From the IMG/VR virus record IMGVR_UViG_3300008452_005051, positions 1-36,564 of that record: a stretch of 36,564 nucleotides of DNA; one strand, 5' to 3'. Below, in pieces: positions 10,750 to 34,190 of this stretch. Source of the stretch: a virus. Made by a program: the position numbers and the translations under genes. Within the stretch, counting starts at the first letter, position 1, and each line of letters starts with the position of its first letter. Under the pieces are notes generated by a model, which was given only the letters and a program-made list of their open reading frames with translations, was not told the origin of the DNA and made no database searches.

Positions 10750-11991
10750 ATGGCGTTAGAGCTAGAATTAAAAGCGGAATTCGAGGCAATTAAAACAGGC
10801 TTAGAATCAAAAACAGCAACGGAAGTAAAGAGCGCAATCGATGCGTTTGAAGCTAAAATCAACACAGCAACAGAAGCGCAAAAAGCGCAATTTGAAACCG
10901 TGCTAAAGGAAACAAAAGAAGCAATGGAACTAAAGTTTCTTGCCGATATTAAAAAGGTTCAAGACCATGCAGACGCCTTAGATGTCAAGCTTAAAGGGGC
11001 TAACCAAATTGAAGTTAAAAACGAAAACTTTAACGATGCAATTGAAAAAGCTATTACAGCTAAATCTAAGGAAATTGAAGATTTCAGAGACAAAAAAAGC
11101 AAGCATGTTGAGCTTGAAATTAAAGCCGTTGGAGATTTTTCTACTGCTAATGTAACAGGAGGCAATAGATATGGTCAGGTATTTGCGCCTGATATTATTA
11201 TGACACCTTCTCGCAAAGTACATATGGATGAGATTTTGCCAGGTGGTACAATAGGGCCAGGTAACTCGTTTACATTTATGCGTGAGGTTGGTGTAGGAGA
11301 GGGCAACATCGCACCAGTTGCAGAGGGAGCAATGAAACCGCAGTTCGATTTAGACTTAGAAGAGTCTACCGTACAAGTTGAAACAATTGCTGGTTGGATG
11401 AGAGTAACCAGAAAAGCAATGTCAAATATCCCTGGGTTTATCTCTTATTTACAGAGAAAATTGCCACAAAAATTCAGAAACGTTTTGGATCAACAAATTC
11501 TTTACGGATCTGGAACTACACCAAACTTAAAAGGGATTTTGACTGCTGGAAATTTTACGGCTTCTACAGCTACCATTTCTTTGTCTTTGGTAGAGAAAAT
11601 CATCCTTGATGTTTCAAGACTAGAAGATGCTTTTGAAAGAGATGCTAATTTTATCGCAATGCGACCATCGGCTTATTATTCTTTCTTTTTGAATAAAGCT
11701 TCTGGCTCTGGAGAATATGACTTACCACAAGGGGTGACTATTGTAGGTGGTCGTTTATCATTCTTGGGTATTCCAGCATATCCTACAACTGCTCTATCGG
11801 CAACTGATTACATCGTCGGAGACATGGAAGGAGCACAATTACTTACTCAGGAATCAATGAGAATTGAATTTTTCGAGCAAGATGGAACAAACGTAAGAGA
11901 AAATAAAGTAACTGTTCGTATTGAGGGTAACTTTGCTTTACCGGTTTACGGCTCTGATTACTTTATCAAAGGAACTACTGCAACTGCATAA
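10750..11991 (+). CDS. major capsid protein (HK97 fold)
   Basis: 413 aa. Residues ~1-120 are a charged helical delta/scaffold domain; a change of character near residues 124-135 (KAVGDFSTANVTGGN) is the likely protease cut. The mature part matches the phage capsid family: GEGNIAPVAEGAMKPQFDLD, then TIAGWMRVTRKAMSN and LYGSGTTPNLKGIL. The operon is closed by the terminator at 12013. Confidence 0.93.
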   Translation: MALELELKAEFEAIKTGLESKTATEVKSAIDAFEAKINTATEAQKAQFETVLKETKEAMELKFLADIKKVQDHADALDVKLKGANQIEVKNENFNDAIEKAITAKSKEIEDFRDKKSKHVELEIKAVGDFSTANVTGGNRYGQVFAPDIIMTPSRKVHMDEILPGGTIGPGNSFTFMREVGVGEGNIAPVAEGAMKPQFDLDLEESTVQVETIAGWMRVTRKAMSNIPGFISYLQRKLPQKFRNVLDQQILYGSGTTPNLKGILTAGNFTASTATISLSLVEKIILDVSRLEDAFERDANFIAMRPSAYYSFFLNKASGSGEYDLPQGVTIVGGRLSFLGIPAYPTTALSATDYIVGDMEGAQLLTQESMRIEFFEQDGTNVRENKVTVRIEGNFALPVYGSDYFIKGTTATA

Positions 11992-12012: not shown

Positions 12013-12042
12013 AAAAAGCCACTCGTTATGAGTGGCTTTTTT
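12013..12042. terminator. bidirectional intrinsic terminator after capsid gene
   Basis: Perfect 12-bp stem AAAAAGCCACTC / GAGTGGCTTTTT (12013-12024, 12030-12041) with loop GTTAT. T runs in both directions, so it stops capsid transcription on + and the 87-aa gene on -, whose stop codon lies at the stem edge. Confidence 0.85.
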
Positions 12043-12304
12043 ATTTATTAATCTCGCAACTAAATCGACTCCCTTCAGTATATTGCCCTTCTAGCTCAAC
12101 ATCTTCCATTTTGAAATTAAATGTGGCTTCCAATTGCTCGATAGGCAATCTCCTAACAAAACGCTCGATAAACTTTCTTTTAGTTCGTTCAATGCTCATG
12201 TCGTTTACAAAATAAACGTGTTTTTGCAACGTTTCGAATGCGGTAAATTTACCGTCTTTTTCTTCAAATCCTGCTGATGTACAGCCTATAATTTCTGTCT
12301 CCAT
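12041..12304 (-). CDS. 87-aa protein, unknown, behind a structured RNA
   Basis: A minus-strand gene inside the otherwise + strand late operon. 87 aa, mixed charge, with a basic helix (SIERTKRKFIERFVRRLP) that could bind RNA or DNA, and a beta-like C-terminus. It starts 18 nt after the T run of the upstream minus-strand terminator (12322-12365), so it is either expressed by read-through of the structured RNA or from an unseen promoter. Family not recognised. The arrangement promoter, RNA, terminator, small ORF resembles attenuation or type III toxin-antitoxin loci, but no ToxN-like sequence is seen. Confidence 0.6.
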   Translation of the reverse strand: METEIIGCTSAGFEEKDGKFTAFETLQKHVYFVNDMSIERTKRKFIERFVRRLPIEQLEATFNFKMEDVELEGQYTEGSRFSCEINK

Positions 12305-12321
12305 ATATAACTATATAAATT

Positions 12322-12365
12322 AAAAAAGACCCAATAAAACTGAGTCGGCAGTTCTAAAGAGTCTT
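12322..12365 (-). terminator. minus-strand intrinsic terminator with inner hairpin
   Basis: Read on -: outer stem AAGACTC / GGGTCTT with one G-U pair; inner hairpin AACTG-CCGACT-CAGTT; then six T. The inner loop CCGACT is complementary to AGTCGG in the loop of the hairpin at 12377-12408. It ends the RNA that starts near 12481. Confidence 0.6.
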
Positions 12366-12414
12366 GTTTTTAAATTAAGTTTATCAGCTTCCGACTTCTG
12401 ATTAACTTTTATAG

Positions 12415-12481
12415 CTGTGCTGCAAGGGTCGAACTTGCGTGACAATCTTTCGATTTCGTTTTACCATTAAACTAAACACAC
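12415..12481 (-). ncRNA. tRNA-like domain lacking an anticodon loop
   Basis: Read on -: acceptor GTGTGTT / AGCACAG (1-72 mismatch G-G, one G-U); U8, A9; D arm GTTT-AATGGTA-AAAC with A14, G18, G19, A21; position 26 G; stem AATC-GAAA-GATT with a GNRA-type tetraloop in place of the 7-nt anticodon loop; 4-nt variable region; T arm GCAAG-TTCGACC-CTTGC with T54, T55, C56, A58. 67 nt, no encoded CCA. The conserved tertiary bases show tRNA descent; exactly three loop bases are missing, so it cannot decode. A decayed tRNA is the main alternative. Confidence 0.6.
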
Positions 12482-12483
12482 CA

Positions 12484-12514
12484 CAAACTTAAGAAACTTT
12501 TTTTAATACACAAA
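12484..12514 (-). promoter_or_regulatory. consensus promoter for the minus-strand RNA
   Basis: On -: TTTG (12514-12511), 19-bp spacer, TAAGTTTG (12491-12484), matching the Bacteroidetes -33/-7 consensus with ideal spacing. The expected start falls at about 12480-12481, the first base of the tRNA-like fold. Confidence 0.7.
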
Positions 12515-27747: not shown

Positions 27748-27780
27748 AATTTCTATTTTTTATTTGTTGTTATCTGAGTA

Positions 27781-27788
27781 CAAATATA
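27781..27788 (-). promoter_or_regulatory. -7 element of the minus-strand accessory operon
   Basis: On -: TATATTTG followed by TACTC, about 34 nt before the ATG at 27747. It lies back to back with the early + promoter at 27811-27871. Confidence 0.5.
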
Positions 27789-27810
27789 GATCTATTTTCG
27801 ATATAAAAAT

Positions 27811-27871
27811 GTTAATGTTTTGTTAAAATTAAAAATAAGTATTAAATTAATCAATCTATACACTATCTTTG
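27811..27871 (+). promoter_or_regulatory. early promoter of the replication side
   Basis: Box GTTAATGTTTTGTTAAAA (27811-27828) resembling those at 258 and 3048, and -7 TATCTTTG at 27864-27871, 53 nt from box start. First ATG at 27898. It should start the long + strand early transcript towards the replication genes. Confidence 0.55.
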
Positions 27872-27897
27872 GTAAAAATTTAAAACAAGAAAATATT

Positions 27898-28047
27898 ATG
27901 AAAAGAAACTATTTCACTATTCATCAGAATAAGAAGCCTAAGAAAATAAAATATTCTAAAATTTATAGCAAAGAACAGCAGGAAAAAATAAGAAAATTAA
28001 ACGAGTTTTGGAGATTAGAAATAGAAAAATTAAAACAAATATTATGA
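27898..28047 (+). CDS. small basic hypothetical protein
   Basis: 49 aa from the ATG at 27898, directly after the early promoter. Very basic N-terminal part (KKPKKIKYSKIYSK), helical C-terminus. Being the first early gene, it could be a host takeover factor; this is inference. Coupled to the next gene by ATGA. Confidence 0.55.
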   Translation: MKRNYFTIHQNKKPKKIKYSKIYSKEQQEKIRKLNEFWRLEIEKLKQIL

Positions 28048-31968: not shown

Positions 31969-34190
31969 GTAAAATTTCACTATTTCCAGAGGGAAAAATA
32001 AGCCAAAAGACCGGCAAACTATCCCCTTCGTCCGTTCCTTTTACAAATATTGAATTTGAAGACTATTTGGATAAAATAAAAGACGGAGAATTTCAAGATG
32101 AGGTTCTGGCTTACAGGACAGGAAAAATAGAAAAAGCAAAATTAAGAGGAGTTACTCCTAGTGGTGTTTTTTCGTATAGAAGCGCAAACAATCTCGTTCA
32201 ACACTCTGGTTTTATAGGCATCGATATTGACACAAAAGATCAGATAAGGGATGATTTTAGTATTTTACGTGAGGATTTAAAAAAGGATAACTACACGTTT
32301 GGTCTGCACGACTCAGTAAGCGGAAAAGGAGGCATTGTTGTTTATGTAAAAATAACACCAGAAAAACACTATGATTCTTTTCTCGCACTAGAAAAATATT
32401 ACTTAGATAATTACAAAATAATCATTGACAAATCTTGTAAAGATGTAAGCCGTTATCGTTTTGTTTCATACGACCCTGATACCTTTGTTAATAAAAAATC
32501 AAGAACATGGAAAACTTATTTGAAAAAGACCCAAATAGAGCCAAAAAGTAATTTTGTTTTTTCTGATGGTGATTTAGATTATGTTTTTCAGCAAATATCG
32601 GACAGAGGGATAGATTTAACTTCCGAATATCACGACTGGTATAAAATAGGTGGCGCACTTCAAAATCATTATGGAGGTCAAAAAGGAAAAGATTTGTTTC
32701 ATTTAGTTTCACAATTTAGCCCAAAATATAATGCAAATTCCGTAGATGATTTGTATAGTATCATAGAAAAAAGGAGCGCTGAAAAAATAGCAACAATTGG
32801 TACTTTCCTTTGGATGTGCAAAAGTAATGGCATTGAAATAAAGACAAAAAGAACAGAAGCGATTGAAAGAGTCGCTAAATTAAGGAGAAAAAGTATCGGC
32901 ACTTCTGGAGGCGCAAAGGATAAAACAGAAGCCAAAAAAGACGCTATTAAAACTTTAGAGTTAGAAAATATTAGCGGAGAAGATGTTGACGAAGTGATAG
33001 AGCGTGTTTTTGCCCTTCCTGAGGCAGAATTAAAGGTAAAGAGTAATGATGTACTAGCGGACTTAAAAACCTTCTTAAAATCGTTTGATTTGCGGTTTAA
33101 TGAGATTACTAGAAATTACGAGCTAAACGGAGAACCAATGATTGATCGTGACTATAACTCATTTTACATCAAAGCCATTGAACAAGTGGATGAGAAAGTC
33201 ACAAAAGATCGTTTATTTTCTTTGATAGATTCAGACAATACGGTTAGTTTTTCCCCTTTTTCTGAGTTTATAAACAAATACAAGCACTTGCAACCTACTG
33301 GTAATTTTGAAAAACTTTGCAGTTGCATAAAATACAAGCAGTATACCTATGTAAATGGGGTAAAGCATCAGGTTGATGATTATTTGGAACTTTTTTTAAA
33401 GAAGTGGCTACTTGGTATTATCTCATCCATGCATGGTACTTATTCTATTTTAGTCTTAGTTTTTACTGGAGGGCAAAGGGCGGGTAAAACTAAATTTTTT
33501 AGGGGCTTACTTCCTGATGAGTTAATGTCTTTTTACGCAGAATCAAAGCTTGATTCTGGGAATGATTCCGAAATTTTAATGACAAAAAAACTGATTATTT
33601 TAGATGACGAGTTTGGAGGTAAAAGCAAGCAGGACGCAAAAAGATTGAAGGAGTTATCTTCTAAGCAATGGTTTAATATTAGACGTCCATACGGTAGGAC
33701 TAGCGAGGATTTAAGGCGTTTAGCTGTTTTATGTGGCACGTCAAATGACGAAGAAATCATAAATGACCCTACTGGAAATAGGCGTATAATTCCTATAAAT
33801 ATTTTAGATATAGATCACGAAAAATTTGAGGAAATAAATAAAATAGACTTATTCATTGAACTTTATCATGAATGGGTAAATGATAAAGATAAGTTTATGC
33901 TTACAAAAGAAGATATTGAAGTATTGAATAGCTGCACGTCGTTGAATGAACAACCTAGTCAAGAGGAGGAAATGATTTTAAAATATTTTAAACCTACAGA
34001 AATAGCTGGAGGAAACTTTGTATACATGACAAATACAGAAATTAAAGCTTTTATAGAAGAAAAGCATCATTCAATAAGGATGAATCCTTATAAGCTTGGA
34101 CTGACTCTTAAAAAGTTGGGATTTGAAAAAACAAGTAAAAGGGTTAGCGGATCAGTTCCCAAAACTGTTTATCTGTTGGAGTATTTGTAG
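31965..34190 (+). CDS. primase-helicase (VirE / BT4734-like)
   Basis: 741 aa from the coupled ATG at 31965. The N-terminal BT4734-like primase-type domain has SGFIGIDIDTKD (about 73-85) and KDVSRYRFVSYDPD; a PriCT-like helical part (about 205-300) follows; then an SF3-like ATPase with Walker A GGQRAGKT (about 502) and Walker B LIILDDE (about 543), and CGTSNDEEIINDPTGNRR as sensor. Found in Bacteroidetes phages as the main replication protein. The iteron region at its 3' end is a likely site of action. Confidence 0.85.
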   Translation: MSKISLFPEGKISQKTGKLSPSSVPFTNIEFEDYLDKIKDGEFQDEVLAYRTGKIEKAKLRGVTPSGVFSYRSANNLVQHSGFIGIDIDTKDQIRDDFSILREDLKKDNYTFGLHDSVSGKGGIVVYVKITPEKHYDSFLALEKYYLDNYKIIIDKSCKDVSRYRFVSYDPDTFVNKKSRTWKTYLKKTQIEPKSNFVFSDGDLDYVFQQISDRGIDLTSEYHDWYKIGGALQNHYGGQKGKDLFHLVSQFSPKYNANSVDDLYSIIEKRSAEKIATIGTFLWMCKSNGIEIKTKRTEAIERVAKLRRKSIGTSGGAKDKTEAKKDAIKTLELENISGEDVDEVIERVFALPEAELKVKSNDVLADLKTFLKSFDLRFNEITRNYELNGEPMIDRDYNSFYIKAIEQVDEKVTKDRLFSLIDSDNTVSFSPFSEFINKYKHLQPTGNFEKLCSCIKYKQYTYVNGVKHQVDDYLELFLKKWLLGIISSMHGTYSILVLVFTGGQRAGKTKFFRGLLPDELMSFYAESKLDSGNDSEILMTKKLIILDDEFGGKSKQDAKRLKELSSKQWFNIRRPYGRTSEDLRRLAVLCGTSNDEEIINDPTGNRRIIPINILDIDHEKFEEINKIDLFIELYHEWVNDKDKFMLTKEDIEVLNSCTSLNEQPSQEEEMILKYFKPTEIAGGNFVYMTNTEIKAFIEEKHHSIRMNPYKLGLTLKKLGFEKTSKRVSGSVPKTVYLLEYL

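Follow-up and report, generated by a model that had tools for sequence, protein, structure and literature searches.

Kissing leader-terminators, putative attenuators in phages of Flavobacteriia, and a tRNA-like insertion in one lineage

What is a small transcription unit, with its own promoter, a tRNA-like RNA and two hairpins with complementary loops, doing on the reverse strand between the structural genes of a phage? The window, that is, the whole 36,564-nt stretch of DNA analysed here, is a 36.6-kb virus record whose structural genes are closest, among named phages, to those of Flavobacterium phage 11b. The unit occupies positions 12041–12514 of the minus strand and sits between the major capsid gene (10750–11991, plus strand) and the connector genes (from 12554 onwards, plus strand). 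Direct reading places its predicted promoter at 12514–12484, with a −33 TTTG (12514–12511), a spacer of 19 nt and a −7 box TAAGTTTG (12491–12484), which we take to fit the Bacteroidetes consensus TTG...TAnnTTTG; the sigma-70 promoter scan does not cover this consensus. The distal end carries an 87-aa gene (12304–12041, minus strand), identified in the list of open reading frames and found at the same site in relatives by contig searches. The terminator scan calls a bidirectional terminator at 12013–12041, common to the capsid operon and the minus-strand cassette. The limits of the unit, its promoter and its gene are all as an earlier note, made from the sequence of the window, had described them. 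As part of the explanation that we find best overall, the unit is reasonably likely to be a reverse-strand accessory-gene cassette driven by its own host-type promoter. The bidirectional terminator is an almost perfect 29-bp inverted repeat, matched at 29/29 positions, in both orientations, in a relative (L006:2572–2600), and is a possible recombination point for cassette exchange.

Between promoter and gene the RNA is predicted to form two hairpins joined by an A-rich linker. Hairpin 1 (12408–12377) has the loop AAGTCGGAAG (12397–12388), within which lies the sequence AGTCGG (12396–12391). Hairpin 2 (12365–12322) has the loop CCGACT (12348–12343), the exact complement of AGTCGG, and its fold spans 12365–12326 and is followed by a T6 tail; the terminator scan likewise calls a stem and T-tract here, making it the predicted intrinsic terminator of the leader. 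Fold and terminator scan therefore agree with the earlier proposal of two hairpins with complementary loops, the second of them a terminator. Neither hairpin matches an Rfam family at gathering score in the window or in the other loci scanned. An alternative terminator hairpin, GACTC...GGGTC, can be drawn at 12346–12328 (minus strand); it uses bases of the kissing loop, so that this stem and the type-A kissing described below would be mutually exclusive.

The design is not peculiar to the window. At the capsid–connector site of related phages we find three leader types that are unrelated in sequence and share one design. Type A (the window, L003, L006 and L009) pairs AGTCGG with a terminator loop CCGACT, type B (L004, L016 and L019) pairs GGTCTGA with TCAGACC, and type C (L008, L010 and L011) pairs CGCTACA at the 5′ end with a terminator loop TGTAGCG; one relative, L017, has no cassette between its capsid and connector genes. 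We call this arrangement a kissing leader-terminator: as read from the sequences, it consists of a hairpin near +1, an A-rich linker, an intrinsic terminator and an ATG, the first loop pairing over 6–8 bp with the apical loop of the terminator ~40 nt further on and the start codon following ~17 nt later. The window hairpins have this layout, with a 68-nt tRNA-like insert separating promoter and hairpin 1. In pattern scans of viral contigs, type A turned up in 15 contigs, type B in 13 and type C in 11, the great majority with TAnnTTTG just upstream and an ATG just downstream, and a few truncated or without a clear ATG; in the relatives of the window leader, too, a TAnnTTTG box precedes hairpin 1. 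A structural scan added many further loop pairs. The loop–loop helix has nearly 30 sequences overall, and ~77 distinct elements, a few of which may be false, are known from all loci. The divergent promoters of the window itself, at ~27750–27900, are without a kissing leader.

The pairing of the loops was assessed in an alignment of 20 leaders (A1). Circularity was avoided by a scan pattern that fixes only the linker and the outer terminator stem and leaves the loops free. This loop-free pattern fits 15 of the 20 rows, in which all 105 kissing cells are Watson–Crick and each of the seven kissing positions shows two to four pair types; the other five were retrieved by a scan with complementarity as a condition, which makes them circular for loop covariation. 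Over all 20 rows the kissing helix has changes on both sides at 7/7 pairs and is 97.1% paired, and the covariation of the whole structure is 0.677, as against 0.176 in shuffled and at most 0.117 in slid alignments. In a second alignment, of 14 type-A leaders (A2), all seven base pairs in the stem of hairpin 1 covary, with changes on both sides, and hairpin 2 is conserved throughout, including a G–C to C–G change in its outer stem. The earlier note had named compensatory changes in the loop–loop pair as a check on the structure, and they are seen across the class with the exception of type A, whose loops, fixed by the search pattern, are invariant and have no covariation of their own. Thus, since the matching loop letters change together between viruses, comparison of the sequences leads us to conclude that the kissing lock is real.

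Chance complementarity was gauged in the window and 50 further records, whole or nearly so, which together contain 161 distinct leaders with promoter, terminator and ATG. In 55/161 leaders the 5′ segment has a stretch of 7 nt or more that is an antiparallel complement of part of the terminator interior, a proportion that is no phage-wide frequency, as the records were gathered around known elements and capsid relatives; the control readings of the partner, which have the same bias, gave 5 (plain complement), 1 (reverse) and 2 (direct copy). At least one element is present in 46 of these records, a count that includes a few double counts. The geometry is regular, the kissing sequence beginning a median 10 nt past the −7 box and the ATG a median 17 nt past the U-tract.

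Isolated phages carry such elements as well. Flavobacterium phage 11b has one, at 33621 (CGGGCAGG/CCTGCCCG), and the Cellulophaga phages phi10:1 and phi19:1 have GTACGAC/GTCGTAC. Three are found in each of hattifnatt9-1 and snusmum6-1, which come from a study of 38 virulent phages of strains LMO6, LMO8 and LMO9 (PMC7077304), the main text of which contains none of the words promoter, terminator and RNA. One lies before a helicase gene, on a type-B scaffold (GCTTCGAC/GTCGAAGC), one before an endonuclease gene (GTCGTCG/CGACGAC) and one before a small gene; this third element has matches in 46 Flavobacterium records. The orthologous small-gene leaders read GTGAGACG/CGTCTCAC in hattifnatt, GTGGAACG/CGTTCCAC in snusmum, mumin and mymlan, and GTGAGAAG/CTTCTCAC in morran (morran9-1), the kissing pair having undergone compensatory double changes. 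The type-A terminator pattern has no match in 84,980 prokaryote genomes, and a chromosomal or prophage origin was discarded on this account; four hits of the linker pattern in genomes come without the hairpins and are due to chance, and named-phage matches to the type-A element are short, low-significance stretches in Campylobacter phages. Two Rfam DUF805b motifs near elements (L114:638–669 and L009:261–292, minus strand) lie elsewhere in their contigs and are unrelated to the leaders.

The tRNA-like RNA, at 12481–12414 on the minus strand, proved to be an addition to this design. It matches the whole of the Rfam tRNA model (RF00005, positions 1–71), D and T arms included, with 32.4 bits against a cut-off of 29 and an E-value of 0.0041 for the window (cmscan), bearing out the tRNA-like fold noticed earlier, in which a GAAA tetraloop replaces the anticodon loop (AAAUC-GAAA-GAUUG). 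A functional tRNA can be dismissed, as this tetraloop is not a 7-nt anticodon loop, the first acceptor pair is a mismatch and ARAGORN calls no tRNA here. Folding-energy z-scores are unremarkable (0.21 for the tRNA-like part and −1.59 for the 160-nt unit), and the evidence for this RNA is therefore the covariance-model match and sequence constraint, not stability. Near-identical copies are limited to three related contigs (the window, L003/L051/L183 and L006); in other type-A leaders the promoter runs straight into hairpin 1. Most relatives with the same hairpins lack it, so that it is not the core of the unit, and the single 160-nt RNA built around a tRNA core that the earlier note envisaged has to be given up. 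On the sequence comparison, it is a lineage-specific 5′ module added to one kissing leader, inserted between promoter and hairpin 1.

For the tRNA-like part alone, a rival explanation is a remnant phage tRNA, now decaying ahead of the leader, which would account for its low tRNA score, mismatched first pair and missing anticodon. We find this doubtful, because the tRNA-like part is 68/68 identical in L183 and 67/68 in L006 (differing at base 1), whereas the capsid gene differs at 35/178 and 42/140 of its fourfold sites, respectively (~20–30%), which argues for constraint and against plain decay; moreover, no close parent is found among the 23 tRNAs in the compared loci. Recent transfer of the segment could mimic such constraint. 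As a lineage-specific module, the tRNA-like part may perhaps stabilise the RNA or help in its processing, and tRNA mimicry is possible.

A pattern search for anticodon-less tRNAs gave only unrelated ones elsewhere. In unrelated viral contigs, tRNA-like RNAs with an abnormal anticodon loop (L064:4228–4297, L063:9022–9091, L063:8034–8086 and L067:4049–4099) are reported by ARAGORN as ‘tRNA-???’ with ‘gaaa’ or ‘tc’ and score up to 59.5 bits with the Rfam tRNA model. A YrlA-like Y RNA match of 38.4 bits, under the 69-bit cut-off, lies at L068:8658–8775 (minus strand), in a 168-kb viral contig with 14 tRNA genes within a 12.4-kb stretch. In the window, the T loop of the tRNA-like part, UUCGACC (12437–12423), has CGAC in common with the terminator loop CCGACU and could pair with the loop of hairpin 1 (12397–12388) over 5 bp, one of them GU. 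This complementarity may be coincidence, UUCGA being usual in T loops.

What, then, would the leader do? We favour, with moderate confidence and on evidence that is computational throughout, a cis-acting attenuator in which kissing tunes termination in the leader. The leader terminator would attenuate transcription of the downstream gene and the loop–loop lock would set how often RNA polymerase stops or reads through, so that the output of the next gene probably depends on the lock. Because the pairing is to the apical loop and not to an arm, kissing and the terminator stem can coexist, and the leader is for the same reason not a classical antiterminator. This compatibility leads us to prefer a clamp: kissing would hold the terminator hairpin together and may in this way favour or time termination unless hairpin 1 is disturbed. 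Hairpin 2 is predicted at −11 to −20 kcal/mol in four examples, and the loop duplexes, considered alone, at −7 to −16 kcal/mol.

The main and most interesting rival of cis attenuation is action in trans, which we regard as rather unlikely. The terminated leader would kiss a nascent leader of the same type and force its termination, in the manner of plasmid antisense attenuation or the c4 immunity RNA of P1, giving negative feedback or exclusion of same-type cassettes and co-infecting phages, with the loops as compatibility groups. The loops do vary fast while staying complementary, and the 16 kissing bases hold 4 of the 12 differences between hattifnatt and snusmum (4/16 against 8/149, Fisher p 0.018), but GU-mediated neutral compensatory drift also accounts for loop change. 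Where one genome carries several elements, up to five, no two are of one type (0/35 pairs against 3.0 expected, P 0.035), but recombination would delete repeated elements; moreover, both tests were devised after the fact, on few data, and locus and phylogeny confound them. A bolder version, to which we give still less credence, makes the kissing leaders sequence-coded identity tags of lytic Flavobacteriia phages, one produced by each early or accessory cassette, that would silence same-type leaders in cis and in trans. If it were true, phages and selfish cassettes would be diversifying their loop codes to escape each other, and the system would be one of RNA-only immunity or exclusion without a repressor protein.

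The leader might instead be mainly a stable small RNA with a target in trans (host defence or an mRNA), the gene being expressed by read-through only. A compact RNA, closed by kissing and bounded by its own promoter and terminator, would suit such a role, as would the tRNA-like 5′ part in the window lineage, but the spacing from U-tract to ATG stays within a narrow range (median 17 nt) even where the genes are unrelated, and loop sequence differs from phage to phage, making this improbable. Least credible of these readings is a nascent RNA like HK022 put, modifying RNA polymerase to read through terminators: two promoter-proximal hairpins do start phage operons, helicase operons included, but hairpin 2 has its own U-tract directly before the gene, and a site recognised by a fixed polymerase surface would not be expected to have loops as hypervariable as those of the class.

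The 87-aa gene is found in nine viral contigs, as against 32 for the capsid gene, and relatives carry other small genes beside it at the capsid–connector site. Its product matches no Pfam or PHROG family, and its AlphaFold model (pLDDT 57.6) is too poor for a structure search. Across the class the leaders precede homing endonucleases of the NUMOD4-HNH and GIY-YIG types, helicases, a methyltransferase and small unknown proteins, names that, outside annotated records, are our reading of the sequences and not a family search. The class extends far beyond the 87-aa gene, which speaks against an RNA dedicated to that protein. A type III toxin–antitoxin with a ToxN-like gene finds no support, in view of the lack of tandem repeats in the leader, the lack of a Pfam or PHROG match and the helicases and homing endonucleases downstream, and neither does a packaging role, in view of the occurrence of elements at many loci and on both strands. 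Of the earlier interpretation, then, the dedicated structured RNA with real kissing hairpins stands, as do the leader terminator and the absence of a described family, and attenuation is the likely role; the tRNA core, the 87-aa partner, type III and packaging find no support.

With this class, phages of a major bacterial phylum have an RNA device that is unlisted and widespread, and the comparative evidence for kissing, from compensatory change in orthologues and from nearly 30 loop sequences, is very strong. It is testable at once in isolates (hattifnatt9-1, snusmum6-1, morran9-1, phi10:1 and 11b) and is relevant to how phages time their early and accessory genes when no repressor is known; it also provides synthetic biology with a ready set of orthogonal kissing-loop terminators.

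Several known systems share parts of this design. Plasmids pT181 and pIP501 use antisense transcription attenuation, and RNA I and RNA II of ColE1 kiss. Like these, the class has loop–loop kissing of 6–8 nt, a leader terminator and covarying loops; unlike them, it has both loops on one leader and no antisense gene, and is found in phages, before many different genes. The c4 RNA acts on translation and Rho. In c4 as in the class, a phage leader RNA is complementary to a downstream site on its own transcript and would control expression. The c4 antisense RNA of phages P1 and P7 is Rfam RF01695 (listed in PMC2864571). The class differs from it in targeting the apical loop of an intrinsic terminator, and has no Rfam match in the loci scanned. 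The lambda pR′-tR′ leader (6S RNA) is under Q antitermination and the put RNA of HK022 has two hairpins; the former resembles the class in its phage promoter, terminator in the leader and genes beyond, and the latter in its two hairpins, but neither is a class defined by kissing, and the class has no fixed recognition sequence. The guanidine-II and purine riboswitches also place kissing hairpins upstream of a gene, with control in the leader; the class, in contrast, is without an invariant ligand pocket, its loops and stems vary with compensation, and its downstream genes have no common pathway. The tRNA-like part resembles the bacterial Y RNA YrlA (RF02553) in being a tRNA-like RNA without anticodon function, but the window has no YrlA match (cmscan, E limit 5) and no Ro-binding stem encloses the tRNA-like part. 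The earlier note knew of no described RNA with this layout; Rfam gave no match for the two hairpins, and the open-access papers searched hold no description of the architecture. Attenuation in leaders is known, as are kissing loops; a class of leader terminators held by an intramolecular, hypervariable kissing helix and spread across phages is apparently new, which we consider likely, if not certain.
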